Shown here: in pieces, positions 4,556 to 48,369 of the stretch
How positions within the stretch are numbered: position 1 is the first letter of the stretch
Layout of the letters: each line of letters opens with the position of its first letter
Assembly: GCA_947245485.1 (NCBI GenBank)
Contig: CAMXOH010000003.1
Location: 1 to 50,575 of the forward strand
Reading direction: 5' to 3'
Length of the DNA: 50,575 nt
Source of the DNA: an uncultured Clostridia bacterium
GTDB taxonomy: Bacteria > Bacillota > Clostridia > Christensenellales > Borkfalkiaceae
Program-made: the position numbers and the translations under genes
Notes under the pieces: generated by a model
Databases searched by the model: none
Told to the model about the DNA's origin: nothing
The model's input: the letters and a program-made list of their open reading frames with translations, nothing else

Positions 4556-4953
4556 AACTAAACGTGGAACTAAGCAGGCGGGAAACCGAAGTAGCACACT
4601 TGCTGGCGTGGGGAGCTTCCAAGAAAGAAGTAGCGGACATTCTGTTTATTTCTACCCGCACCGTAGAGAATACAGCCCGGAACATCTACGCGAAAGTAGG
4701 CATACAAAAGGCTACGGAACTTTGCGTTTGGTGGTTCTGTACAAAGCATAATGTTCCGGTAAGCCTTGACCCGTTAAAACGCACATTCGTAGCGGTAGCC
4801 CTTCTTCTGCTTATACTCCCGAAGGAACTTACCGGGAACGGCGATTTTTTCAGAGTAGGAAGACGCGCGCAGATTACACGGATTGTCAAAACGACGGGAA
4901 GGCGCAAAGGCGAAAACGATTATAACCCTTTTGAAGTTTGCAGTTATGACTAA
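4552..4953 (+). CDS. LuxR/GerE-type HTH protein
   Basis: LSRRETEVAHLLAWGASKKEVADILFISTRTVENTARNIYAKVGIQKATEL is a canonical GerE HTH; ATG at 4552 preferred over upstream TTG. Confidence 0.85.
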   Translation: MKLNVELSRRETEVAHLLAWGASKKEVADILFISTRTVENTARNIYAKVGIQKATELCVWWFCTKHNVPVSLDPLKRTFVAVALLLLILPKELTGNGDFFRVGRRAQITRIVKTTGRRKGENDYNPFEVCSYD

Positions 4954-5167
4954 GATTTTTAAAGCCATCGGCATAGAATTTACGAAACCGCTAAAGTGGT
5001 ATAACTGGCTTACCCTTGCTTGGGTTGCCGTTTCCTTTATACTTCTAAGCATTGACACTGAAACCGAGCCTATATGGGCAGTATTCCTTGTAGTTGCGAA
5101 TTTCGCCCTTTCAATAAAGGTTGCGGCGAAGACAATACCGGACATTAAAGACGACGAAAACAGTTAG
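4946..5167 (+). CDS. Small membrane protein
   Basis: ATG at 4946; two hydrophobic segments. Confidence 0.5.
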   Translation: MTKIFKAIGIEFTKPLKWYNWLTLAWVAVSFILLSIDTETEPIWAVFLVVANFALSIKVAAKTIPDIKDDENS

Positions 5168-5170
5168 ACT

Positions 5171-5455
5171 ATGGACACAAAGAAACGAATAATAGACCTT
5201 ACGCTCGGCGAACTTATGGACGCGATAGACGAACGTATAGAAGTTGCGGCACAGAAGCCGGAAAAGCCTAAAGCGGCGAAACGTTACGTGTACGGTTTGA
5301 AAGGGCTTGCAATTCTATTAGGGTGTTCCAAGACAACCGCAGCACGGTTGAAGGCTTCCGGGCGGATTGATGCAGCGATAACGCAAGTAGGCGCGCTACT
5401 GATTATTGACGCTGATTTAGCGTTAAAGCTGGCAGCAGGAAACAAAAAGAAATAA
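5171..5455 (+). CDS. DUF3853-like (excisionase-type helix-turn-helix) protein
   Basis: YVYGLKGLAILLGCSKTTAARLKASGRIDAAITQVGALLIIDADLAL. Confidence 0.75.
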   Translation: MDTKKRIIDLTLGELMDAIDERIEVAAQKPEKPKAAKRYVYGLKGLAILLGCSKTTAARLKASGRIDAAITQVGALLIIDADLALKLAAGNKKK

Positions 5456-5473
5456 CTTTTAAAACACAGCTAT

Positions 5474-6154
5474 ATGATTAAAAACATTTGGATTAACATT
5501 CCCGGCTTTTCTAAATATGAAATAAATAGGGAGAGCAGGCAGATACGAAGTTACTGCCGGGGAGTAGAACCGCGTATATTGAAACCATGCAATAACGCAT
5601 TGATATTAAAGGCGGATAACGGGGAAAAATACACCGGAAGCCTTAAACGTTTCCTTTATTCGGCGGAAAAGAACATAGACCCGCGCGAAATTAGCCGAAA
5701 ATACTGTATAGTTGAAACAACCAGCGGGCAGATAGAACTAATAGATCGTAACACATTTCAAGAACGGATTAGGGAGCGTTTGAGAAAGAGAACAAGCGTT
5801 TCCAATATACAAGAAGAATATTTGAACGCCATCCAATTTTGCGCGATTGTATTGCAGGCATACCGGACAGGTGATTTTTCAATGGTAATAACCGAGATTG
5901 AAAGCCGCAAGGCAAAAGTAACGGAATATATCATCCGGCACAGAATAGCGGTACAGCCGGAACGCGTACGGGAAGTTTGGGAAGCCGTCTTAGACGTAGC
6001 CCTAAACTGCATCATAGAGAAGCGCACCTACATAGTAAACCTTACGGGCTACCTGAACAGCATAGCACGCTCCTATGCAGCCCAAAAGAAGAAATTAGAG
6101 AAAATAACCGTAAGTCTTGACGCGGGATTTTATTCACTTCAAAAATATCAGTAA
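5474..6154 (+). CDS. Protein with NUMOD4-like N-terminus
   Basis: IWINIPGFSKYEINRESRQIRS resembles the NUMOD4 motif; no HNH/GIY-YIG seen. Confidence 0.6.
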   Translation: MIKNIWINIPGFSKYEINRESRQIRSYCRGVEPRILKPCNNALILKADNGEKYTGSLKRFLYSAEKNIDPREISRKYCIVETTSGQIELIDRNTFQERIRERLRKRTSVSNIQEEYLNAIQFCAIVLQAYRTGDFSMVITEIESRKAKVTEYIIRHRIAVQPERVREVWEAVLDVALNCIIEKRTYIVNLTGYLNSIARSYAAQKKKLEKITVSLDAGFYSLQKYQ

Positions 6155-6155
6155 T

Positions 6156-8207
6156 ATGAGCAAAAAAGCAATCATCAAACGTCTAAGCCTTGTAAATTTC
6201 AAAGGCTTGCGCAACGTCGTTATAGACTTTAACGACACAGTTACAACCATAAGCGGACGGAACGGCACGGGAAAGACTACCATAATGGACGCTTTTACAT
6301 GGCTTCTTTGGGGCAAAGACAGCGAAGGCAACGTAGATAGTAAGTTCGGAATTAAGACCAACGACGCAGAAGGTAACTTTATTCCCGACCTTGAACACGA
6401 GGTAGCCGGAACGTTGGAAATAATAGATACCGAAACGGGAAGTGTTGAAACCGTAGAACTCCGTCGCGTATTGGTTGAAGAATGGAAAACAGAGAAGGGA
6501 AAGACGGAAAGGAAGTTAAAGGGACATCATACCGACTACTTCTATAACGGAGTACCATTAAAAACAAAAGGCGAATACGACGAACGTATAAACGCAATTA
6601 TACCCGAAGCTGTTTTCAAGATGATTACCAACCCCTACTATTTCCTTTCCCTTCATTGGACGGCACAACGCGAAATGCTTTTGCAGATAGCCGGGGGCGT
6701 AAGCTACGAAGACATAGCGAAGGGAGATACCGCCTTTGCCGCATTGATAGAACGGCTTAGTGGGAAAACGGTAGAAGACTATAAACGCGAGATTGCAGCG
6801 CAAAAGGAGAAGATAACGAAGGAATTGGAAAAGATACCTACGCGTATTGACGAAATAACGCGTGCTACCCCGCTTACACCGGACTATGCCGCCCTTAACA
6901 CCGAAAAGGAGCAACTTACAAAAGAATTGAACGACATAGACGAAGCCGCCGCATCAGCAGCAGAAGCCAACCGTATCGCCTATGAAGCTGCCGCTAAGGT
7001 ACAAACCGCCATAAATGACAAACGTAGCAGCCAGCACGCATTAGTATTTAAGGCAAAGGAAACGGCAAGGAATGAAGCATTCAAGAAGAACGAAACTTAC
7101 AATAATGCCGACCGTAAGTTACAGCAGGTTATAAACGACGAACGCAGCGAAGCCAGCCGTTACCGTAGTGAATACGACCGTTTGACGAACGAGAAGAAAC
7201 GGACGCAAAGCACAATAGAAGGCTACAAGCAAATGCAGAACGAACTACGCGAAAGATGGTACAAAGTAAACGCCGAAGAATTTACCGCTACGGAAAGTCT
7301 TGTTTGCCCGTTGTTTAAGCACGCTTGCGCCGACCCGGTAGCATTAGCAAAATATAACACCGACCGGGAAGCCGCTCGCGAAAAATTCTATGCAGACCGG
7401 GAAGAACGCCTTAACAAGATTAACACGGACGGTCAGCGGTTAAACGAAATGATAACATCGCAGGAAGAAGAAGCCAACCGGATAGACAAAGCGTTAGCCG
7501 AATTGGAAACCAGCCACACTACCGCCGTAGCAAAGGCGAAAGAAGACCGCGAAGCGTTGCAAAAGGTTTTGAATGACAATCCCCGCGTAAATACCGAACC
7601 GGATATTAACGGAGAAGACCTCCCGGAATGGGTTGCGCTTGAAAAAGAAATAAAGGAACTTTCCGAACAGCTTCCAGCCTTCAACGCGGATGACGCGGCA
7701 AGCAGAACAGAGATACGCCAACGGAAAGCCAACCTTACTGCCCGGCTTGATGAAGTAAAGCGTAAACTAAACCTTCGCACCATTATAGAAGCCAACGAAA
7801 AGCGCATAGCCGAACTAAACGGGGAAGCCGCAAAATTGGCGCAGGAACGCGCCGAAATACAAGGCTGCGAAATAGTAATAGCCGACTTGATAAAAGCCCG
7901 TATGACGGAAGTGGAACGCCGCGTAAACGGATTGTTTAGCCGGGTTCAGTTCAAGATGTACAAAACGCTCGTAAACGGCGAAAAAGAACCGGATTGCATT
8001 TGCCTTATTGACGGGGTAAAATACGCGGATAAGAACCAAGCCGGGAAAGTTAATGCCGGGCTTGACATAATAAACACCCTTTGCACGTTCCACAACGTTA
8101 GCGCGCCTATTTTCGTGGATAACGCAGAAAGTATTAACGAGTTTATCCCGGTTGTTAGCCAGCTTGTAAAGTTGGTAGTAACTACCGAAGACTTCAAAGT
8201 AGAATAA
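6156..8207 (+). CDS. SbcC/Rad50-like AAA ATPase
   Basis: Walker A GRNGTGKTTIMDAF, coiled coil, CPLFKHAC; ATG at 6156. Confidence 0.88.
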   Translation: MSKKAIIKRLSLVNFKGLRNVVIDFNDTVTTISGRNGTGKTTIMDAFTWLLWGKDSEGNVDSKFGIKTNDAEGNFIPDLEHEVAGTLEIIDTETGSVETVELRRVLVEEWKTEKGKTERKLKGHHTDYFYNGVPLKTKGEYDERINAIIPEAVFKMITNPYYFLSLHWTAQREMLLQIAGGVSYEDIAKGDTAFAALIERLSGKTVEDYKREIAAQKEKITKELEKIPTRIDEITRATPLTPDYAALNTEKEQLTKELNDIDEAAASAAEANRIAYEAAAKVQTAINDKRSSQHALVFKAKETARNEAFKKNETYNNADRKLQQVINDERSEASRYRSEYDRLTNEKKRTQSTIEGYKQMQNELRERWYKVNAEEFTATESLVCPLFKHACADPVALAKYNTDREAAREKFYADREERLNKINTDGQRLNEMITSQEEEANRIDKALAELETSHTTAVAKAKEDREALQKVLNDNPRVNTEPDINGEDLPEWVALEKEIKELSEQLPAFNADDAASRTEIRQRKANLTARLDEVKRKLNLRTIIEANEKRIAELNGEAAKLAQERAEIQGCEIVIADLIKARMTEVERRVNGLFSRVQFKMYKTLVNGEKEPDCICLIDGVKYADKNQAGKVNAGLDIINTLCTFHNVSAPIFVDNAESINEFIPVVSQLVKLVVTTEDFKVE

Positions 8208-8239
8208 CATTATTATTAACTTTTTTAAATAACAGCTTT

Positions 8240-8977
8240 ATGAATACAGAAAAGAAAATCGCGTCTTACGAGGACGCTTGTAGAGTTTTGAACATTCAAC
8301 CGATTAACGAAGAAGCGTTTAACATATTCCCGAAGGAAGACCAAAGAAGCATGTTAGCCTACCACAAGCTGACAGTAATAACCCGCGCACTTAATAACGG
8401 TTGGAAGCCGAATTGGGACGACCAAAACGAATGGAAGTATTACCCGCTATTCCGTTATGTAAATGCCGGGCTTTCGTACGCGTATACGAATAACTCGGCT
8501 ACGTATACGATCGCGTATATCGGCTCTCGGCTTTGCTTTCCCACGTCCGCGCTCGCGAAATACGCAGCCGAACACTTTGCGGACTTGTATCGTGACTATT
8601 ATTGCTTTGCTTCGGGAAACGGAGAAACGCAACAAGCGGAAAGCAGCCAAGAAGAACCCCAAAGCGACTTTTTGAAGACCACCACAGAAGTAATGCAAAA
8701 GCATTTAGTACCATTATGTAACGGAAGCAGTTCACGCGGTCTTATCGTAGTAGGTTGCGACACAGATACGAAAGATAAAAACGGCGAAGACAGTACCGGA
8801 GTAATGGTAGGTTTTTGCGGAAATTATGGAGCCATAATAAAGGGCTTGAAAGAACTTCTTACCGGAAAGCAGTCCGCGCCGATAGTAGAACGGGCAACCC
8901 GCGAAATAGCTTTTGAAAAGATGATTAAAGGCGGTGGAATAGAGAGCTTTTTAAAGGACATAATGAACAACAATTAA
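8240..8977 (+). CDS. DGR target protein 1 (early region), YEDAC...GSRLCF domain with internal VR1 and a C-terminal extension
   Basis: Contains VR1 (AGLSYAYTNNSATYTIAYIGSRLCF); paralogous to 10997-11545. Confidence 0.85.
   Translation: MNTEKKIASYEDACRVLNIQPINEEAFNIFPKEDQRSMLAYHKLTVITRALNNGWKPNWDDQNEWKYYPLFRYVNAGLSYAYTNNSATYTIAYIGSRLCFPTSALAKYAAEHFADLYRDYYCFASGNGETQQAESSQEEPQSDFLKTTTEVMQKHLVPLCNGSSSRGLIVVGCDTDTKDKNGEDSTGVMVGFCGNYGAIIKGLKELLTGKQSAPIVERATREIAFEKMIKGGGIESFLKDIMNNN
8462..8537 (+). repeat. DGR variable repeat VR1
   Basis: Aligned ungapped to TR 47141-47216: 5 adenine-position substitutions and 1 T->C outside the IMH; shares the IMH GGCTCTCGGCTTTGCT with VR2/VR3. Confidence 0.88.
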
Positions 8978-8988
8978 CTAACGATAGT

Positions 8989-9816
8989 ATGAATACCAAC
9001 ACTTTACCCGCTACCATATTGGCAGCAAAAGAAAAGTTTGAATTAGCCTGCAAGGACGCTTCGGCTTTGCAGATCGTAAGCAACTTCGGTGCGGCATTTA
9101 CAGCCGTAAACGTAATAGCACTTCTTCGCGAAGCCATGACCGACGAAGTAATGGATAAGGTTTTCATGCCTTTGATGAACACGAAAATAGGATTTCTTAC
9201 AGACCGAAACGGGCGTGCAAGAAGCGGCGGGCGCGCCCCGCTTCCGCTTTACACCCGCGACATAGTACGCGATTGCATCATAGACGCGGTTACTATCGGC
9301 TTGCTTCCGACCGGAAACCAGTTCAATATAATAGCCGAAAGGATGTACCCCACTAAGGAAGGTTATACTTCGCTTCTTCGCAAGCTGGGCGTAAAATACT
9401 TCATTGATACCTCATACGACAAGGGGCAAACGCAGAACTTCGCCGAAATACCTTGCAAAATAAACTATGAGTATAACGGAGAAAAAAACGGCTTTAGCAT
9501 TATTGCAACCGTAAAGAAGGATGATTACAGCAGCCACGACCAACTGCGCGGAAAAGCCGAAAGAAAGGCTAAGAAAGCCCTATACGAGTACATTACGGGG
9601 TGCGACTTCGGCGATGCAGACGAACAAAGCAGCGTACCGATAGTGGATGCGGTAGCCGAAGAAATAAAAGAAGAAGCGAATGCCGCGCCTACTATTGGAG
9701 TTATCGACGGGCAACCCATACAAGCACAGCAGGGACAAACGGCGCAAAGCGAGCCAGCTAACCCGCCGCAAGCACGGGAAGGTCGCGGAAGTAATAACGC
9801 TAAACCATTGTTCTAA
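8989..9816 (+). CDS. RecT-like ssDNA annealing/recombination protein
   Basis: Position between SbcC-like ATPase and MBL-fold protein; overall RecT-like pattern (GLLPTGNQFNIIAERMYPTKEGYTSLLRKLGV ... RGKAERKAKKALYEYITG). Confidence 0.6.
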   Translation: MNTNTLPATILAAKEKFELACKDASALQIVSNFGAAFTAVNVIALLREAMTDEVMDKVFMPLMNTKIGFLTDRNGRARSGGRAPLPLYTRDIVRDCIIDAVTIGLLPTGNQFNIIAERMYPTKEGYTSLLRKLGVKYFIDTSYDKGQTQNFAEIPCKINYEYNGEKNGFSIIATVKKDDYSSHDQLRGKAERKAKKALYEYITGCDFGDADEQSSVPIVDAVAEEIKEEANAAPTIGVIDGQPIQAQQGQTAQSEPANPPQAREGRGSNNAKPLF

Positions 9817-9818
9817 AT

Positions 9819-10571
9819 ATGGAATTAACCGTATTAGGTTCAAGTTCAGAGGGTAACGCCTACGTTTTGCAAAACGCGGGCGAAGCCCTTCTACTTGAAG
9901 CTGGAATACCATTCAAGAAGGTATTAGCAGCGTTGGGCAACAACGTAAAGAAAATAGTAGGCTGCCTCATTACCCATGAACATGGCGACCATGCCGGGCG
10001 TATTAATGAGGTTTTAAACTACGTTGTTCCGGTTTACGCTTCCAAAGGCACGATAGAAGCCGCTAAGATTAATTCTTGCTGGCGACCGACCCACATAAGG
10101 ATGGAAAACGGAAGTTACCAGCATTTACGGCTGGGCGGTTTTACTATCATTCCCTTTCCCACGAAGCACGACAGCCGCGAACCGTTGGGCTTCTACGTCT
10201 GGCATGAAGAAACGGGCGGCGTATTGTTTGCTACCGATACTTTCTATTTGCCTTGCACATTTGCCGGGTTGAACAACATATTAATTGAATGCAACTACGA
10301 CCCGGATATATTGGAACGCAATGTAACAGAAGGTTATATACCGGAAGTATTGAAAGAACGAGTACGGAGAAGCCATTTAAGCTACTATACTTGTTTGGAC
10401 GCGTTGAAGGCTAACGACCTAACACGGGTTAATAACATAGTATTGATACATATAAGCGAAGGGAACGGCGACGCGGTAGCCTTCCGGGACGGAATAGCAA
10501 AAGCCACCGGAAAAACGGTACACGTCGCAAAACCCGGACTACGGATTAGTTTCAACAAAACACCTTTTTAA
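9819..10571 (+). CDS. MBL-fold metallo-hydrolase (YycJ/exonuclease-like)
   Basis: LITHEHGDHAG motif. Confidence 0.88.
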   Translation: MELTVLGSSSEGNAYVLQNAGEALLLEAGIPFKKVLAALGNNVKKIVGCLITHEHGDHAGRINEVLNYVVPVYASKGTIEAAKINSCWRPTHIRMENGSYQHLRLGGFTIIPFPTKHDSREPLGFYVWHEETGGVLFATDTFYLPCTFAGLNNILIECNYDPDILERNVTEGYIPEVLKERVRRSHLSYYTCLDALKANDLTRVNNIVLIHISEGNGDAVAFRDGIAKATGKTVHVAKPGLRISFNKTPF

Positions 10572-10582
10572 TTGCAAGCACT

Positions 10583-10978
10583 ATGATTAAAGGGTTTTCA
10601 GAAGAAACGCAACCGCTGACAGAATACGAAAGGAAAGTAATACTTCCGATTATTCTTGAAGGCTTGAAAACCAAGATAGGCAAAGCCAACGCGGTAACGA
10701 ATAAGTATATTATTTCCCGGTTACGTGACAGCTACAAGATAGACGCGGCACGGCTAAGGAAGATAATAAACCACATTCGTACAAACGACCTTCTACCGGG
10801 ACTTATAGCAACTTCCGAAGGCTATTTCTTAGCTACGACCGAAAGCGAACTTTTGGAATACGAAGAAAGCCTGAAAGGACGTGAAGAAGCTATAAAAGCA
10901 GTACGGTTGAGTATCGCAAGGCAAAGGCGCATACTTTACGAAGACGCGCACAAGCCCAAGCAGGGAACATTATTTTAA
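10583..10978 (+). CDS. Hypothetical protein (winged-helix-like)
   Basis: 131 aa ORF in early operon. Confidence 0.6.
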   Translation: MIKGFSEETQPLTEYERKVILPIILEGLKTKIGKANAVTNKYIISRLRDSYKIDAARLRKIINHIRTNDLLPGLIATSEGYFLATTESELLEYEESLKGREEAIKAVRLSIARQRRILYEDAHKPKQGTLF

Positions 10979-10996
10979 TATTTAAATTTTAGTGAC

Positions 10997-11545
10997 ATGA
11001 AAAAGATTTGTTTATACAGAAAAGAGAACGGGAACGAGAATTTACAAGGCAGATACGACAACGTAGAAGAAGCGCAAGACACCGTAAAGAAACTTACCGA
11101 AGACGAAGGGAACGGTAGTATTTTCGATTACTTCTACAAGGAAGAAGACTACGAGGAAATAACCGACCGGGTAAAGACCTACGAAGACGCATGTAAGGTA
11201 TTAGGCGTAGAACCGATAAACGAACAAAACGCGAAGGCGCAAGGCTTCAGATCGGACGAAATAGCACGCCGCAAATTGGAAACTATTGCCGCAGCACTTA
11301 ACGAAGGCTGGAAACCGGATTGGAACAATACCGACCAATACAAATACTACCCTTACTTCTATATACAAGAAAACGCGAAAGGCAAAGGTTCTGCCGGGCT
11401 TTCGTTCGCGTATACGAATCGCGCGGCTTCGTATACGTTTGCGGTTATCGGCTCTCGGCTTTGCTTCTACGCTTCACGTTTGGCACGGTACGCGGGCAAC
11501 CAATTTACAGACTTATACGAACAAATTTTAATTGAGAAGCTATGA
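10997..11545 (+). CDS. DGR target protein 2 (early region), YEDAC...GSRLCF domain with VR2
   Basis: Contains VR2 (AGLSFAYTNRAASYTFAVIGSRLCF); paralogous to 8240-8977. Confidence 0.87.
   Translation: MKKICLYRKENGNENLQGRYDNVEEAQDTVKKLTEDEGNGSIFDYFYKEEDYEEITDRVKTYEDACKVLGVEPINEQNAKAQGFRSDEIARRKLETIAAALNEGWKPDWNNTDQYKYYPYFYIQENAKGKGSAGLSFAYTNRAASYTFAVIGSRLCFYASRLARYAGNQFTDLYEQILIEKL
11390..11465 (+). repeat. DGR variable repeat VR2
   Basis: Aligned ungapped to TR 47141-47216: 13 substitutions, all at TR adenines, plus the shared IMH. Confidence 0.93.
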
Positions 11546-11814
11546 CAAAGCAGGAATTAGTGAACTCGGTAGCGGAACAGACCGGATTAAACAGCTATCA
11601 AGTAAAGGAAGTATTAGAACGTACATTTGATGTTATTCGGGACGAAGTGACGGGCGGCGATACGGTAACTATTCGCGGCTTCGGTACTTTCCAAACGAAG
11701 CAACGCAAGGCGAAACCAGCCCGGAACATAAATACGGGCGAAACCCTATTAGTTCCAGCCCGCAAGGTTGTTGTTTTCAAACCCTCAAAAGACTTTAACG
11801 CGGATAGGATATGA
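11542..11814 (+). CDS. HU/IHF family DNA-binding protein
   Basis: VTIRGFGTFQTKQRKAKPARNINTGE signature. Confidence 0.96.
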   Translation: MTKQELVNSVAEQTGLNSYQVKEVLERTFDVIRDEVTGGDTVTIRGFGTFQTKQRKAKPARNINTGETLLVPARKVVVFKPSKDFNADRI

Positions 11815-12659
11815 AACAGAACGAAAAAATACAGACCCGGAAAGACGAAGTACGCTTCAAAACTTCGGACATACGCCGAATAATAGGAAAATACTTAGCG
11901 GCAAATGTTTTGCGCACATGGAACGAGGACTTTGTGGACGATGATACGGGAGAGGTTGTAACTATTGAGCGCAACGAAATTCTGTTTGAGCGCGGGAAAT
12001 ATATAGATAACGATTTGGCGACCGAGATAAATTTCTATCTGCAAAGCGAAGACGTTAAAGAAGTGGAAGTAAGTAACCAACGAAGACTCGCTTACGAAAA
12101 CAAGCGAACCAGCCTTTACCCGTTCAAGATTTCCGCTACCATTGGCGGTAAGCGGCATAACTTCATATTGCAGGCGCAAAACATAATAAAAGCCTATGAG
12201 GTTGCGACCGACTATATAGAATTGAATTTTACCCAGCCGTTCGACATAGTGGGCATAAAGTTGATGGATAGGATTATAATTCTTAACGACCGCCTGCGGA
12301 AACACGTTGAAGCGCAGGAAGGCGCAAACGAAGAAGGCGAAGAAAGCAACGACGGGGAAGATCAGCGCAACGATACGAAGTATTACAAGGTTGAAGCCGA
12401 CGTAGTAATACAATCGGAAGACGAAGAAGAACCGAATAAGCAGAACTACGATTTTGTTGTAAAAACACGCGACGTGGATACGGCTAAGGTCGTTATTACC
12501 GCATGGATAAACAGCAAGATAAAAGAGCGTATAGAAAAAGAAAACGAAGAATGTAAGGTAGTGGATATTTCCATACTTGCGGCTTCGCCTTTCGCTTGCA
12601 ACGCGATTGTAGAAAAAGCCTTTTGTTTGGCATACAAAGAACAAGAAGAAAGTTATTAA
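11811..12659 (+). CDS. Hypothetical protein
   Basis: 282 aa ORF, overlaps HU stop by 4 nt. Confidence 0.7.
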   Translation: MKQNEKIQTRKDEVRFKTSDIRRIIGKYLAANVLRTWNEDFVDDDTGEVVTIERNEILFERGKYIDNDLATEINFYLQSEDVKEVEVSNQRRLAYENKRTSLYPFKISATIGGKRHNFILQAQNIIKAYEVATDYIELNFTQPFDIVGIKLMDRIIILNDRLRKHVEAQEGANEEGEESNDGEDQRNDTKYYKVEADVVIQSEDEEEPNKQNYDFVVKTRDVDTAKVVITAWINSKIKERIEKENEECKVVDISILAASPFACNAIVEKAFCLAYKEQEESY

Positions 12660-12704
12660 CTAACCGGGGCGCGCCTTCGGGCGTGTCCCTAAAATATACC
12701 TATC

Positions 12705-13565
12705 ATGGGCGATAAAAATTCATTCGTATTATATATGGATTTGCTTTCAGTGCTTGATGAACTTGACGACGAAGAAACGGCTATGTTGTTCCGCGCGATT
12801 AGAGCCTATAACCAATTAGAGAGCGAAAACGAAGCTATACGGACGAAGGCTGCGGAAGATTTGGAAGCAATGACGGCGAACAAAACCGTTAGGATAGCAT
12901 TTGCACCCATCCGAAAACGTCTTGAAGCTGATAACAAGCGTTACGCGGAAACAGTGCAGTTGAATAAAGCTAACGGCAAATTAGGGGGCGCGCCTAAAGG
13001 TAATCAGAACGCACGAAAGAAGAAAAAGAATACGGAAACCGAGGAAACAAGCCAAAACAACCCAAACAACCGGGCGGTTGATTTTTCAACCGAAACAACC
13101 GAAGGGTTGAAAAAACAAGCGAAAACAACCGAAAACAACATTGATATGATATGTAATGATGTTGATATGATTAATAATAATTCTCCTTCTCTTCTTTCTC
13201 TTGATGGCGTGCGCGAGAAAAAAAACATAAACGGCAAGGAAACCGAAAACAGTAAGTTTCTAACCGAATTTTTCAGCGAAAACAAAAGGGCGCAGATAGA
13301 AACCATTTGCATGCAGCTTTATGTCACTCCCGAACGATTGCGCAAGGAAGCCGAAGAAGTTATAGACGAATGGGAACTAACCGGAGATACCCACATAAAT
13401 TATACCGAATGGGCGCGGCATTTGATTAATCATCTAAGAATTAAAATAAGGAAAGACAATGGGAACAACAGAGAACAAAAAGCAGGAGCAACCGATACAA
13501 CGGATAGACATAGTGGCATTTGCGAACCTGCTACGCAAAAGAAGCCCCGCCGTAGCACGCTTTAA
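12705..13565 (+). CDS. DUF6291-like replication-associated protein
   Basis: N-terminus SFVLYMDLLSVLDELDDEETAMLFRAIRAYN; followed by a DnaC-like gene. Confidence 0.7.
   Translation: MGDKNSFVLYMDLLSVLDELDDEETAMLFRAIRAYNQLESENEAIRTKAAEDLEAMTANKTVRIAFAPIRKRLEADNKRYAETVQLNKANGKLGGAPKGNQNARKKKKNTETEETSQNNPNNRAVDFSTETTEGLKKQAKTTENNIDMICNDVDMINNNSPSLLSLDGVREKKNINGKETENSKFLTEFFSENKRAQIETICMQLYVTPERLRKEAEEVIDEWELTGDTHINYTEWARHLINHLRIKIRKDNGNNREQKAGATDTTDRHSGICEPATQKKPRRSTL
13050..13223. repeat. Iteron-rich direct repeat, copy 1 (within CDS 12705-13565)
   Basis: Near-identical to 29133-29297; multiple AACAACCG-type motifs. Confidence 0.85.
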
Positions 13566-14175
13566 GATTGACCGTTATACGCAGGACGTACCCGCCATGC
13601 TACGCGAATGTTACCGTTTCCAAGTTGAAAACCGGGGCTATTCTTACCAAGAAGACGAAGCGACAAGGCAGCATCTTACAATGGCGGCGCGTTGGCTCGT
13701 TGGCGAAAGCATGAAACCGGGGTTATTCATGTACGGAACACCCGGATGCGGAAAGACAACATTAGCGCGTGCAATTTCCCAGCTAATAAATACGATTTAC
13801 CATAGCGATATATCGTTTGAACGTAAAGGCGTTTCCTTTATTCCGGCTTCCGCACTTACGGAAGCAGCGAAGGGGGAAAAGCAGGAACTTTTAGCGGACT
13901 TGAAAAATACCGAGCTTCTTTGCATCGACGACGTAGGGACGGAACCAGCAAGCCTAAAGGTTTGGGGAAACGAGGTTAGCCCGTTGGTAGATTTGCTATA
14001 CCACCGTTACGACCGCCAGTTATTCACGATTATAACCTCAAACTTGGAAGGCGACGAAGATATAGCCAAGCGTTACGGGGTTCGTGTAGCCGACCGATTT
14101 GTAGAGATGTTCGACCTTATAGGCTTCGATAATTCAAGTTACCGACCAAGACTAACAAAGCTAACACCGCGATAG
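13459..14175 (+). CDS. DnaC-like AAA+ ATPase / helicase loader
   Basis: Walker A GTPGCGKTTLARAI, Walker B LLCIDDVG. Confidence 0.88.
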   Translation: MGTTENKKQEQPIQRIDIVAFANLLRKRSPAVARFKIDRYTQDVPAMLRECYRFQVENRGYSYQEDEATRQHLTMAARWLVGESMKPGLFMYGTPGCGKTTLARAISQLINTIYHSDISFERKGVSFIPASALTEAAKGEKQELLADLKNTELLCIDDVGTEPASLKVWGNEVSPLVDLLYHRYDRQLFTIITSNLEGDEDIAKRYGVRVADRFVEMFDLIGFDNSSYRPRLTKLTPR

Positions 14176-29132: not shown

Positions 29133-29297
29133 AGCCAAAACAACCGAAAACAACCGGGCGGTTGATTTTTCAACCGGAACAACCGAAGGGTTGAAAAAAC
29201 AAGCGAAAACAACCGAAAACAACATTGATATGATATGTAATGATATGATTTAATAATTATCTTTCTCTTCTTCTTAATGGTGTGCGCGAGAGAAAAA
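29133..29297. repeat. Iteron-rich direct repeat, copy 2 (intergenic)
   Basis: Near-identical to 13050-13223, with out-of-frame indels. Confidence 0.85.
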
Positions 29298-29535: not shown

Positions 29536-30246
29536 ATGAACGAATTACAAGAACAAATCTTAGCACTACTTGTGGCAAAGTTCCAAGGCGTGCGCAAAGA
29601 CGGGTTACAGCATTTGGCAGCCGCTATCGGCTTACAAGTCGCTACCATAGAAGAAGCTAACGGAGTTGTAGATAAACTTACCGCCGACAAAGTTAGCCAG
29701 TACGTAACAGATTGGCGTAAGGTTGCAGACGCGGAAATAAGCAAAGCGAACCAAACCTACGAAAACGGACTGAAAGAAAAGTACGATTTCGTGGAAAAGG
29801 GAAAGCAAACACCGCCGACACCCCCCACGCCACCAGCAGGCGGAGCGATAACGCTTGACGCGATCAGCAAACTTATTGATGAAAAACTTTCGGGCGTGCA
29901 AAGTAGCATTACCGAGATTAACGCAAATAAGGCGGCTGCTTCGCGACGTGAACTATTTGTAGCGGAATTGGACAACGCGAAGATTGAGGGAAAGACCCGC
30001 GACGTGATGTTAAAGAACTTCGACCGGGCTAACACCTTTGCGAGCGACGAAGATTTCAACAGCTACTTGACCGAAGCGAAAGGCGACATCGCAGCCTTAG
30101 CGCAAGAACGCGCAGACGCAGGACTGCAAGGACACGATAAGCCGATTTTTGGAGCCGTGAACAAAGAAGGCGTAAGCAGTGGCGTAGCAGACTACATCAA
30201 AGCGCAAACCGAGAGTAAGACAGCCTTAACGGGCAAAGAAGTTTAA
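29536..30246 (+). CDS. Putative scaffolding protein
   Basis: Coiled-coil-rich 236 aa protein just before capsid genes. Confidence 0.6.
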   Translation: MNELQEQILALLVAKFQGVRKDGLQHLAAAIGLQVATIEEANGVVDKLTADKVSQYVTDWRKVADAEISKANQTYENGLKEKYDFVEKGKQTPPTPPTPPAGGAITLDAISKLIDEKLSGVQSSITEINANKAAASRRELFVAELDNAKIEGKTRDVMLKNFDRANTFASDEDFNSYLTEAKGDIAALAQERADAGLQGHDKPIFGAVNKEGVSSGVADYIKAQTESKTALTGKEV

Positions 30247-45081: not shown

Positions 45082-45342
45082 ATGGAAAATAGAAACGGCG
45101 ATTTAGTGAGCGCGCAAATTTCGGTAGCCGGGAACGTGGACTTTTCCGGTGGCAACTTCCGAAAAGACACGCCTTTTTGCTTAAAAAACGATGGCGAAGC
45201 GGCGGTAGTATTGGAAGTAAACCTTTGGGGAATGCCCGAAGGCGAATTTATAAGCACGCGCTTTGAAACGGGATGGAACCCCGAAATTATCAGAGAGATA
45301 AAAGAAACGAGTTCAGTAACCGCCCTGATTTGGGGCTATTAA
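45082..45342 (+). CDS. Hypothetical protein
   Basis: 86 aa ORF in the tail-tip operon. Confidence 0.6.
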   Translation: MENRNGDLVSAQISVAGNVDFSGGNFRKDTPFCLKNDGEAAVVLEVNLWGMPEGEFISTRFETGWNPEIIREIKETSSVTALIWGY

Positions 45343-45353
45343 AAATTATAACT

Positions 45354-46688
45354 ATGGGTTTAATTATTGCAGCGGGCAACACAAAGCCCGCGTTTCCTTA
45401 TGATTACTATTACGGCGTAAAGATTAATATAAACGTGGCAGATACCGCGTTAGAACGCGTAGGAAGACCGGAACTACATGTTTCGCTCCCGGTTCAATCC
45501 CTTATGCGCCGTTGTTTGCTTAACGATGCCGGGCAGGTTGTTACCTACCTTCATCAAACCGACAGTACGAAGACGGACACCGGGGCAGCGGCAGACCTTA
45601 CCGGAGCTTCCGGCATGGTAATGGTAGAAATACCGAAGCACTACCGTAAGTTTGAATTTGACGGTACTACGTTTACCTGCCTTATTTCGCAATACCAGCT
45701 ACCGGGCTTTATCGAAGTACCGAAAATGTACCGGAGCGCATACGAAGCCACGATAGACCGAACTTTATCGGCTACTCCCAAACTTGCCAGCGTGGTAAAT
45801 ACTACGGCTGCTTTCCGGGGCGGCAACAATAATACGGCATGGGACGGAACTTATAGAACCCTATTAGGTCGCCCGGCTACCGCCACATCGCTAACCAACT
45901 TCCGAAAATACGCACGAAACAGAGGTGCAGTAGGATTGAACGGCGCGGGCTGGAACTGCGATTTATACGCGGCACAAAACGCGACCTATTGGCTTTATGT
46001 GGTTGAATACGCCAACCTTAACTGCCAGCTTGATTTTAACGCGCAGCCTACAAGCGAAGGCTACAAGCAGGGCGGATTAAGTGCGGGCGTTACGACGCTT
46101 AACAGTACGAAGTGGAACACATTCAATAGCTACTACCCGTTTGTCCCCTGCGGTACTACAAATTCATTAGGCAACGCTTCGGGCGTAGTTGAATTTACCA
46201 TGCCGGACGAATACGATACGGGCGTAGTAGTTAAAGTAAAAGTACCTTCATACCGGGGAATAGAAAACCCGTTCGGGCATATTTGGAGTTGGACGGACGG
46301 ATGCAAATGCGCTATTGAATCGGATGCGGACGGCGGCGTAAGTTCTTTCTATACTTGCGACAACCCAGCAACCTACCAAGATACCAACTATGACAATTAC
46401 GTAAAACGCGGCGAACTTCCACGTAAGGAAGGTTATGTTAAGCGCATGATGATAGGCGAATACGGGGAAAATATGCCTACGGAAGTGGGCGCAGGTTCTA
46501 CTACCTACTTTGCCGACTACTTCTATACCAACATACCAGCCAGCGGCGTAGCACAAAGGGGTGTCTTGTTCGGCGGTTCTGCGCATAGCGGCGCGTATGC
46601 CGGGCTTTCGTACGCGTATACGAATCACGCGGCTACGACTACGGCTGCGCCTATCGGCTCTCGGCTTTGCTTTATCCCCGCCGCGTAA
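45354..46688 (+). CDS. DGR target protein 3, receptor-binding-type protein with C-type-lectin-like C-terminus
   Basis: ATG at 45354; C-terminal VR3 FGGSAHSGAYAGLSYAYTNHAATTTAAPIGSRLCFIPAA. Confidence 0.9.
   Translation: MGLIIAAGNTKPAFPYDYYYGVKININVADTALERVGRPELHVSLPVQSLMRRCLLNDAGQVVTYLHQTDSTKTDTGAAADLTGASGMVMVEIPKHYRKFEFDGTTFTCLISQYQLPGFIEVPKMYRSAYEATIDRTLSATPKLASVVNTTAAFRGGNNNTAWDGTYRTLLGRPATATSLTNFRKYARNRGAVGLNGAGWNCDLYAAQNATYWLYVVEYANLNCQLDFNAQPTSEGYKQGGLSAGVTTLNSTKWNTFNSYYPFVPCGTTNSLGNASGVVEFTMPDEYDTGVVVKVKVPSYRGIENPFGHIWSWTDGCKCAIESDADGGVSSFYTCDNPATYQDTNYDNYVKRGELPRKEGYVKRMMIGEYGENMPTEVGAGSTTYFADYFYTNIPASGVAQRGVLFGGSAHSGAYAGLSYAYTNHAATTTAAPIGSRLCFIPAA
46559..46671 (+). repeat. DGR variable repeat VR3
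   Basis: Aligned ungapped to TR 47104-47216 (offset 545): 14 substitutions, all at TR adenines, plus the IMH. Confidence 0.96.
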
Positions 46689-46731: not shown

Positions 46732-47076
46732 ATGACTTCAAACAATAATAGCACAGATGATGGTAGCCTTTCGTTCTTGAACATTCAACCGGACGAAGCG
46801 AACAAACATTTTAACTGCCCGGAAACCACCCAGCAGAAACTAATCAATTTGCAGTTTTGGTTAATTGATTTTATCGAAGACGTGAAAACGAAATTCGGTG
46901 CGAACCGTTTCCTCGTGAAAATAAAGTTCAAGAAGGACGACCCCGAAAGCGAAGCAAAGAAGTTCTTTACAAATTCCAGCGAAATAAAATACATTTTGCA
47001 GGAAATAAAGAAGCGTAACGCCTTCCCGCGAAAGGTAACTATGCGGGCTTCGGGAACGCGCTATTATTTTGAGTAG
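46732..47076 (+). CDS. Small protein between target and TR; candidate DGR accessory protein
   Basis: 114 aa, Lys-rich, in the usual accessory-gene position; no recognisable Avd signature. Confidence 0.65.
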   Translation: MTSNNNSTDDGSLSFLNIQPDEANKHFNCPETTQQKLINLQFWLIDFIEDVKTKFGANRFLVKIKFKKDDPESEAKKFFTNSSEIKYILQEIKKRNAFPRKVTMRASGTRYYFE

Positions 47077-47103: not shown

Positions 47104-47216
47104 GGGTGTCTTGTTCGGCGGTAATGCGAATAACAGCGCGAATGCCGGGCTTTCGTACGCGAATACGAATAACACGGCTACGAATACGAATGCGAATATC
47201 GGCTCTCAGCTATACT
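47104..47216 (+). repeat. DGR template repeat (TR)
   Basis: AAY/ACG-rich; source-like for VR1-3; ends with IMH*-like GGCTCTCAGCTATACT; immediately upstream of RT. Confidence 0.96.
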
Positions 47217-47334: not shown

Positions 47335-48369
47335 ATGAAAAGGTTAGGCAACCTTTACGACCAAATAATAAGTTTGGATAATTTGCACCTTGCGGACGAA
47401 CGCGCCCGCAAGGGCAAACTACATTCCTACGGCGTAAAGTTACACGACCGCAACAAGGAAGCCAACCTTTTGTCTTTGCACGAAGCACTGAAAGCAGGAA
47501 CTTACAGAACTTCGGAATATAGTACCTTTACGATATACGAGCCTAAAGAACGCGAGATTTTCCGTTTGCCATACTTTCCCGACCGGATTGTACATCATGC
47601 CGTAATGAACATTTTAGAGCCTATATGGGTGTCTATTTTCACGGCGGACACTTATAGCTGCATCAAAGGGCGTGGCATACAAGCGGCGGCAAACAAGTTA
47701 AGGCACGTTATCGACAAAGATAAGGCAGGCTGCGCGTATTGCTTGAAAATAGACATACGCAAATTTTACCCTTCCATAGACCATACCGTACTAAAGTCCA
47801 TTGTTCGCCGGAAGATTAAGGACACACGGCTACTCAACCTTTTGGACGAAATAATAGACAGTGCGGAAGGCTTACCGATTGGCAACTACCTTAGCCAATA
47901 TTTAGCAAATCTTGTACTTACCTACTTTGACCATTGGGTAAAGGAAGTAAAGCGGGTAAGGTACTATTTCAGATACGCTGACGACATTGTAGTATTACAT
48001 AGCGATAAAAAGACGCTTCACGCTTTGCTGGCAGAGTTTGAAAGCTATTTGACGGCTAACGTAAAGCTGGAAATCAAACAGAACAAACAAGTTTTTCCGG
48101 TGGCACGCGACCACCGCGACAGCTTCGGGCGTGGTATTGATTTCTTGGGCTATGTATTCTATTTGAACGAAACACGGCTTAGGAAGCGTATCAAACAGAA
48201 CCTTTGCCGCAAGATAGCTAAATTACGGAAACGGAAGAAACCGTTAAGCGAGGATGAATTTAAGCAGACGTTAGCCGCGTGGTGGGGTTGGGCTAAATAC
48301 AGCGACAGCGAATATTTAATTAACAAGTTAAACAAAATTACACCTTATGAAATCAAGTTCAAACGTTAG
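47335..48369 (+). CDS. DGR-type reverse transcriptase
   Basis: LKIDIRKFYPSIDH, GLPIGNYLSQYLANL (IGxxxSQ), YYFRYADDIVVL (YADD), FLGYVF; 344 aa with no maturase domain seen. Confidence 0.97.
   Translation: MKRLGNLYDQIISLDNLHLADERARKGKLHSYGVKLHDRNKEANLLSLHEALKAGTYRTSEYSTFTIYEPKEREIFRLPYFPDRIVHHAVMNILEPIWVSIFTADTYSCIKGRGIQAAANKLRHVIDKDKAGCAYCLKIDIRKFYPSIDHTVLKSIVRRKIKDTRLLNLLDEIIDSAEGLPIGNYLSQYLANLVLTYFDHWVKEVKRVRYYFRYADDIVVLHSDKKTLHALLAEFESYLTANVKLEIKQNKQVFPVARDHRDSFGRGIDFLGYVFYLNETRLRKRIKQNLCRKIAKLRKRKKPLSEDEFKQTLAAWWGWAKYSDSEYLINKLNKITPYEIKFKR

Follow-up and report, generated by a model that had tools for sequence, protein, structure and literature searches.

Phage DGRs are mostly regarded as switches of tail tropism. 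A small gene among the recombination and replication genes of a temperate phage, carrying what looks like a copy of a DGR template that lies far away beside the tail genes, raises two questions: whether it is a genuine and active target, and what its hypervariable product might do. The window analysed here is the whole of contig C3 (50,575 bp), part of a 1.87-Mb bacterial bin, and it carries a temperate, siphophage-like prophage. From the left, an integrase and a repressor are followed by recombination and replication genes and then by terminase, portal, tape measure, tail and lysis genes. Homology to two near-identical phage copies starts at about position 547-555, so the prophage boundary may lie there, with host DNA making up the ~550 bases to its left. 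The DGR lies at the right end of the prophage, in the order tail gene, template repeat (TR), reverse transcriptase (RT), with the following features.

45273-46688, plus strand: tail protein (phrog_5302, profile match) containing VR3
46559-46671, plus strand: VR3, the RT-proximal variable repeat, in which every difference is at a TR adenine
46732-47076, plus strand: small ORF (phrog_19665), 114 aa, between the tail target and the TR
47104-47216, plus strand: TR, of which 47141-47216 is the portion common to VR1 and VR2
47335-48369, plus strand: DGR-type RT with motifs GNYLSQ and YADD (RVT_1, 1.4e-19; phrog_1423)

The RT ORF is intact, and its motifs are the GxxxSQ-like and YxDD motifs by which DGR-type RTs are recognised. 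Relatives of the phrog_19665 ORF were found directly beside DGR RTs in loci L008, L009, L092, L099, L102, L110 and L161. Among the ORFs scanned there was no family match to the accessory protein Avd, and the RNA downstream of the TR showed no unusual fold (z = 0.53). The ORF at 46732-47076 is possibly an unrecognised DGR accessory factor.

A search of the whole bin with the TR returned exactly four matches, namely the TR itself and three variable repeats (VRs), all on the window contig. VR3 is in the tail gene, and the two remote repeats, VR1 and VR2, are in the early gene run at the left. "Early" is applied to their genes from gene order and is probably correct. A terminator and promoter scan of 4900-13600 gave no signal above chance, and the operon structure therefore rests on gene spacing. 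The relevant features of this run are as follows.

6117-8207, plus strand: SbcC-like ATPase, upstream of the VR1 gene
8240-8977, plus strand: VR1 target gene, 245 aa, a phrog_11581 N-terminal part with an extra C-terminal domain
8462-8537, plus strand: VR1, the second early variable repeat, with one non-A change (8512) that is absent from two near relatives
8989-9816, plus strand: ORF without a family match; by position only, it stands where L029 has a RecT-like annealing protein and phage Versailles a recombinational repair protein
9819-10571, plus strand: MBL-fold metal-dependent hydrolase, lying between the VR1 and VR2 genes
10997-11545, plus strand: VR2 target gene, an ORF of 182 aa, phrog_11581 family
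11390-11465, plus strand: VR2, variable repeat
11446-11466, plus strand: probable IMH at the 3' end of VR2 (predicted site), identical in all three VRs
11542-11814, plus strand: HU-family DNA-binding protein, whose start codon overlaps the VR2 gene stop
13459-14175, plus strand: DnaC-like helicase loader, downstream of the VR2 gene in the same gene run

The MBL-fold hydrolase gave a weak, sub-threshold match to the anti-Pycsar protein Apyc1. The window also holds a 97-nt direct repeat, 99% identical, whose copies are 16 kb apart, one (13064-13160) inside a DnaD-like/DUF6291 gene and the other (29148-29244) intergenic.

Aligned without gaps, TR positions 47141-47216 and VR2 share 60 of 76 bases, and all 16 differences are at TR adenines. 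This agrees with an earlier note on this DNA, which had described VR2 as a remote DGR target with adenine-only variation. Its count of 13 substitutions in VR2 stands only with three further differences set aside (11457, 11461 and 11463). These three are the same in VR1, VR2 and VR3 and differ from the TR, and are for this reason read as the distinction between IMH (initiation of mutagenic homing) and IMH* and not as mutagenesis. The other 13 changes are at 11390, 11391, 11406, 11411, 11420, 11421, 11423, 11429, 11432, 11438, 11439, 11444 and 11445. In this mutable part 13 of 20 adenines and none of 46 other sites were changed (hypergeometric P = 3.8e-9). The codon changes quoted earlier (TAC->TTC, AAC->CGC, AAT->TTT, AAT->GTT) were correct. 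All VR2 changes affect codon positions 1 or 2, and in the VR frame stop codons cannot arise from changes at TR adenines. The homology with the TR does not continue upstream of 11390, where 10 nt already contain 5 non-A mismatches. The gene lies 36 kb from the TR and RT, on the strand of the tail genes, outside the structural genes and within the recombination and replication genes. It adjoins HU, with which it shares 4 bases, and precedes DnaC (13459) and SSB (15382); the earlier note had likewise placed it next to HU and upstream of the replication genes.

The closest relative carrying VR2 was L156, a prophage in a Phocaeicola MAG (CANPVZ010000006.1, isolate 'Lapin-001') that is 95.5% identical to the window over 20.5 kb. 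Its VR2 differs from that of the window by 11 substitutions in 66 nt, all of them at TR adenines and at codon positions 1 or 2 (P = 1.6e-7; scored against the window's TR, that of L156 being missing from its assembly). In the flanks (11253-11389 and 11456-11545) none of 227 bases differ (P = 4e-8). The 5' part of the gene (11026-11118) is also divergent in L156 and is unrelated to the TR. VR2 is thus not the sole variable stretch, and it is the substitution pattern that sets it apart. The earlier note had named beforehand a comparison of VR2 across phage copies, in which an equal share of substitutions at template A, C, G and T would have spoken against it; against L156 no such spread was seen, and the 11 of 11 differences at TR adenines bear out its suggestion of recent or ongoing mutagenic retrohoming. 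At the level of sequence, the comparison demonstrates that VR2 is rewritten at the adenines of a template lying 36 kb from it, and that this happened recently in terms of a divergence to 95% identity.

A corresponding variant was found for VR1. The contig L180 (IMG/VR 3300005461) is 99.3% identical to the window over 8.3 kb, with 55 differences, 10 of which fall inside the 76-nt VR1; nine of these 10 are at TR adenines. This contig reaches as far as window position 10939 and so narrowly misses the VR2 gene. When viral contigs were scanned for a VR2-flanking 35-mer and for the exact TR, neither gave a match, so that the comparison covers one near-identical VR2 (that of L156). Among 398 genomes of the window bin's family and 396 of its order, VR2 was found in the bin itself only, and among 399 genomes of the family of the L156 genome, in that genome only. 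It is doubtful which bacterium hosts the window phage: no further genome in the bin's family yielded the VR2 gene, and the most similar prophage was found in Phocaeicola.

More distant orthologs could be compared with templates of their own. The VR2 ortholog of G003 (the same locus as in Barnesiella sp. WM24, L157) has 12 changes at adenines of its own TR and none elsewhere. That of G002 has seven and none, scored against the TR of L049, another contig from the sample that yielded G002 and presumed to belong to the same phage. Against the TRs of other phages, the same two orthologs show 2-9 non-adenine mismatches, and the TRs of more distant phages differ at non-adenine sites. By these alignments, the VR2 orthologs in G003 and G002 track their own phage's TR. 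The VR2 of L005 was left out as evidence, because the one TR available for it, from another contig (L039) in the same sample, fits worse than the TRs of other phages. In ten active early VRs pooled, 110 of 196 A sites were changed, compared with 3 of 464 other sites. The ortholog in G014 (L146:8637-9197, minus strand) had 12 A and 18 non-A mismatches, with GSRLC replaced by TQRLC and the ORF intact; its sister VR1 gene is still actively targeted. As it is no longer a target, it serves as a control that shows ordinary divergence. Judged by this pattern, the VR2 of G014 is a natural case of target loss, and targeting is not universal.

Two explanations would deny VR2 an active role. It might be a fossil, or owe its sequence to recombination with another VR such as VR3, with reverse transcription no longer acting on it; the IMH and some of the substituted bases are indeed common to VR2, VR1 and VR3. 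However, some VR2 changes are absent from both VR1 and VR3, the near-identical phages differ in VR2 at 11 adenine sites only, the RT is intact with its motifs, and a real fossil, the VR2 of G014, looks quite different. We consider this explanation very improbable. Ordinary diversifying selection on a host-interaction gene could likewise produce changes at codon positions 1 and 2, but selection does not single out the positions at which a template 36 kb distant has adenine (P about 4e-9), nor does it fit the finding that old paralogs agree with the TR at almost every non-A site of their VRs (see below), and it can be practically dismissed. VR2 is, on the comparisons above, almost certainly a true remote target of this temperate phage's DGR, and one that is still in use.

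The rewriting can be pictured as follows. The RT would copy the TR transcript with errors at adenines, and the cDNA would replace VR2 in trans, 36 kb away. Replacement would be guided by the ~21-nt initiation site at the 3' end, identical in the three targets, and by 5' homology extending to about 11390. Up to 13 codons could be rewritten in each event, within ~25 aa of a small protein of the early operon, and no stop codon could result. From established DGR biology we infer the dependence on the RT and the retrohoming of cDNA into VR2, in trans via the shared IMH. In a reconstitution in E. coli, proximity to the replication origin and a co-directional orientation both favoured efficient DGR editing (PMC12875486).

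The VR1 and VR2 proteins both match phrog_11581, the latter with an E-value of 2.8e-36 over residues 30-178. In a tree built without the VR segment they formed two separate, well-supported clades, which indicates that their genes are old paralogs and not a recent duplication; in both, almost every VR site outside the TR adenines still agrees with the TR. The C-terminal domain of the VR1 protein (8630-8977) was found solely in the VR1 proteins of close relatives and had no relatives in the phage collection. The fetched IMG/VR and genome loci in which a DGR RT occurs together with phrog_11581-type genes contain ~70 such genes. In nearly all of them a VR differs in an adenine-directed way from a TR close to the RT, and the genes often stand two or three in a row; the exceptions, with mixed mismatches, include L020 and L164. 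Where examined, the neighbourhoods were early: SbcC, RecT and MBL genes in L029, Mu-like transposition genes in L018, and replication initiation and DnaC genes in L165. We here identify phrog_11581, from these repeats and neighbourhoods, as a widespread DGR-target family, often located in early recombination and replication operons.

Inspected by eye, the VR2 protein has no apparent signal peptide or membrane segment. The 28-aa VR segment is all that it has in common with the tail protein. It had no structural-family match in the profile search, no defence-family match and no sequence match to solved chains. Two AF2 models (pLDDT 86.6 and 85.7, with the VR segment poor) gave no lectin-like or otherwise informative PDB match in fold searches, and in a viral structure library they matched only uncharacterised homologs and small DUF7336-like proteins, the latter through the N-terminal domain. 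Family and fold searches thus returned no match indicating what the protein binds. The N-terminal domain (11064-11108) resembles the N-terminus (29648-29692) of the gene at 29536-30246 (phrog_5824).

Going by gene position, the VR2 protein may be a hypervariable intracellular binder of a factor that varies among hosts or rival elements, acting early in infection or on induction, in counter-defence or host takeover. We hold this reading, tentative and short of an even chance as it is, to be the most likely of the three weighed here. The early VR proteins could instead serve superinfection exclusion or sensing, being expressed from the prophage or early and binding variable factors of competing phages, not of the host. 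Such a role would suit a temperate phage with an integrase and a repressor, whose early paralogs lie between the repressor and the replication genes, and cellular DGRs are known to diversify putative conflict-system sensors (PMC10907252). However, the recombination and replication run that holds the VR2 gene would normally be repressed in a lysogen, and no defence family was matched; we regard this role as unlikely. Less probable still is that the VR2 protein belongs to the virion or is injected, for instance as an extra adhesin, and is diversified for adsorption as in the tail gene. The usual DGR targets are tail proteins, and the record of phage Versailles calls its homolog a "tail protein", but that label is accounted for by the homology limited to the VR segment. 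The VR2 gene has neither the structural location nor the homology beyond the VR that mark a tail receptor-binding protein, the lack of a structural-family match also speaks against a virion role, and homologs in unrelated phages sit in early recombination, replication or transposition neighbourhoods.

If the intracellular binder is the right reading, one TR might diversify both entry, through the tail, and an intracellular early step, and the early family might be a fast-evolving counter-defence binder on a scaffold that is perhaps not the C-type lectin fold usual in DGR variable proteins. We consider this extension possible but doubtful. That DGRs rewrite an early-operon protein family in many phages of Bacteroidota, in some of them over distances of tens of kilobases, suggests targeted hypermutation inside the infected cell and not at its surface only. 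Since the cultured phages Versailles and BI-TP1 have a similar arrangement, what such an intracellular hypervariable protein would bind is directly testable.

Distal non-structural DGR targets have been published (PMC8008677, PMC12629997), and VR2 is therefore not a new kind of target. A large global survey of DGRs stated that remote targets would escape it, its contigs being short (PMC8144416). The DGR of Quimbyvirus ("Quimbyviridae") has a tail target and a distal non-structural one (Benler et al. 2021, PMC8008677), and, as in the window phage, one tail-side TR and RT serve both. The Quimbyvirus distal target lies on the opposite strand, in a counter-defence island of methyltransferase and tRNA-ligase genes, whereas the window phage has two early targets, on the strand of the tail genes and in a run of SbcC, MBL, HU and DnaC genes. 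In BI-TP1, a LoVEphage-like phage with a Quimbyvirus-like neighbourhood, the distal target gp84 belongs to the VR2 protein family. It is a VR (14 A changes, no others) beside methyltransferase and tRNA-ligase genes as described for Quimbyvirus, and by this gene content gp84 is probably the counterpart of the Quimbyvirus target in that publication. A second, distal VR is also present in four inducible species of gut prophage (PMC12629997, 2025); theirs is described as one extra VR near counter-defence genes, in contrast to the two in the early recombination and replication run found here. The isolated Bacteroides phage Versailles (ON453897) resembles the window phage in having a phrog_11581-type gene between recombination genes and DnaC, and this gene is a VR (15 A, 1 T) of a distant TR beside the tail genes. 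Unlike in the window phage, one early family gene was found, labelled "tail protein", and the RT is only 42% identical. In tentaclin DGRs (PMC10743442) one TR likewise serves two different target genes, but both lie within the DGR cassette and the tentaclins are interpreted as receptor-binding proteins. Set against the open-access literature searched, what is new here is the combination of two ancient early paralogs and a tail gene on one TR, with natural variants for both early VRs, and the recognition of phrog_11581 as a widespread DGR-target family that tends to occur in early operons.
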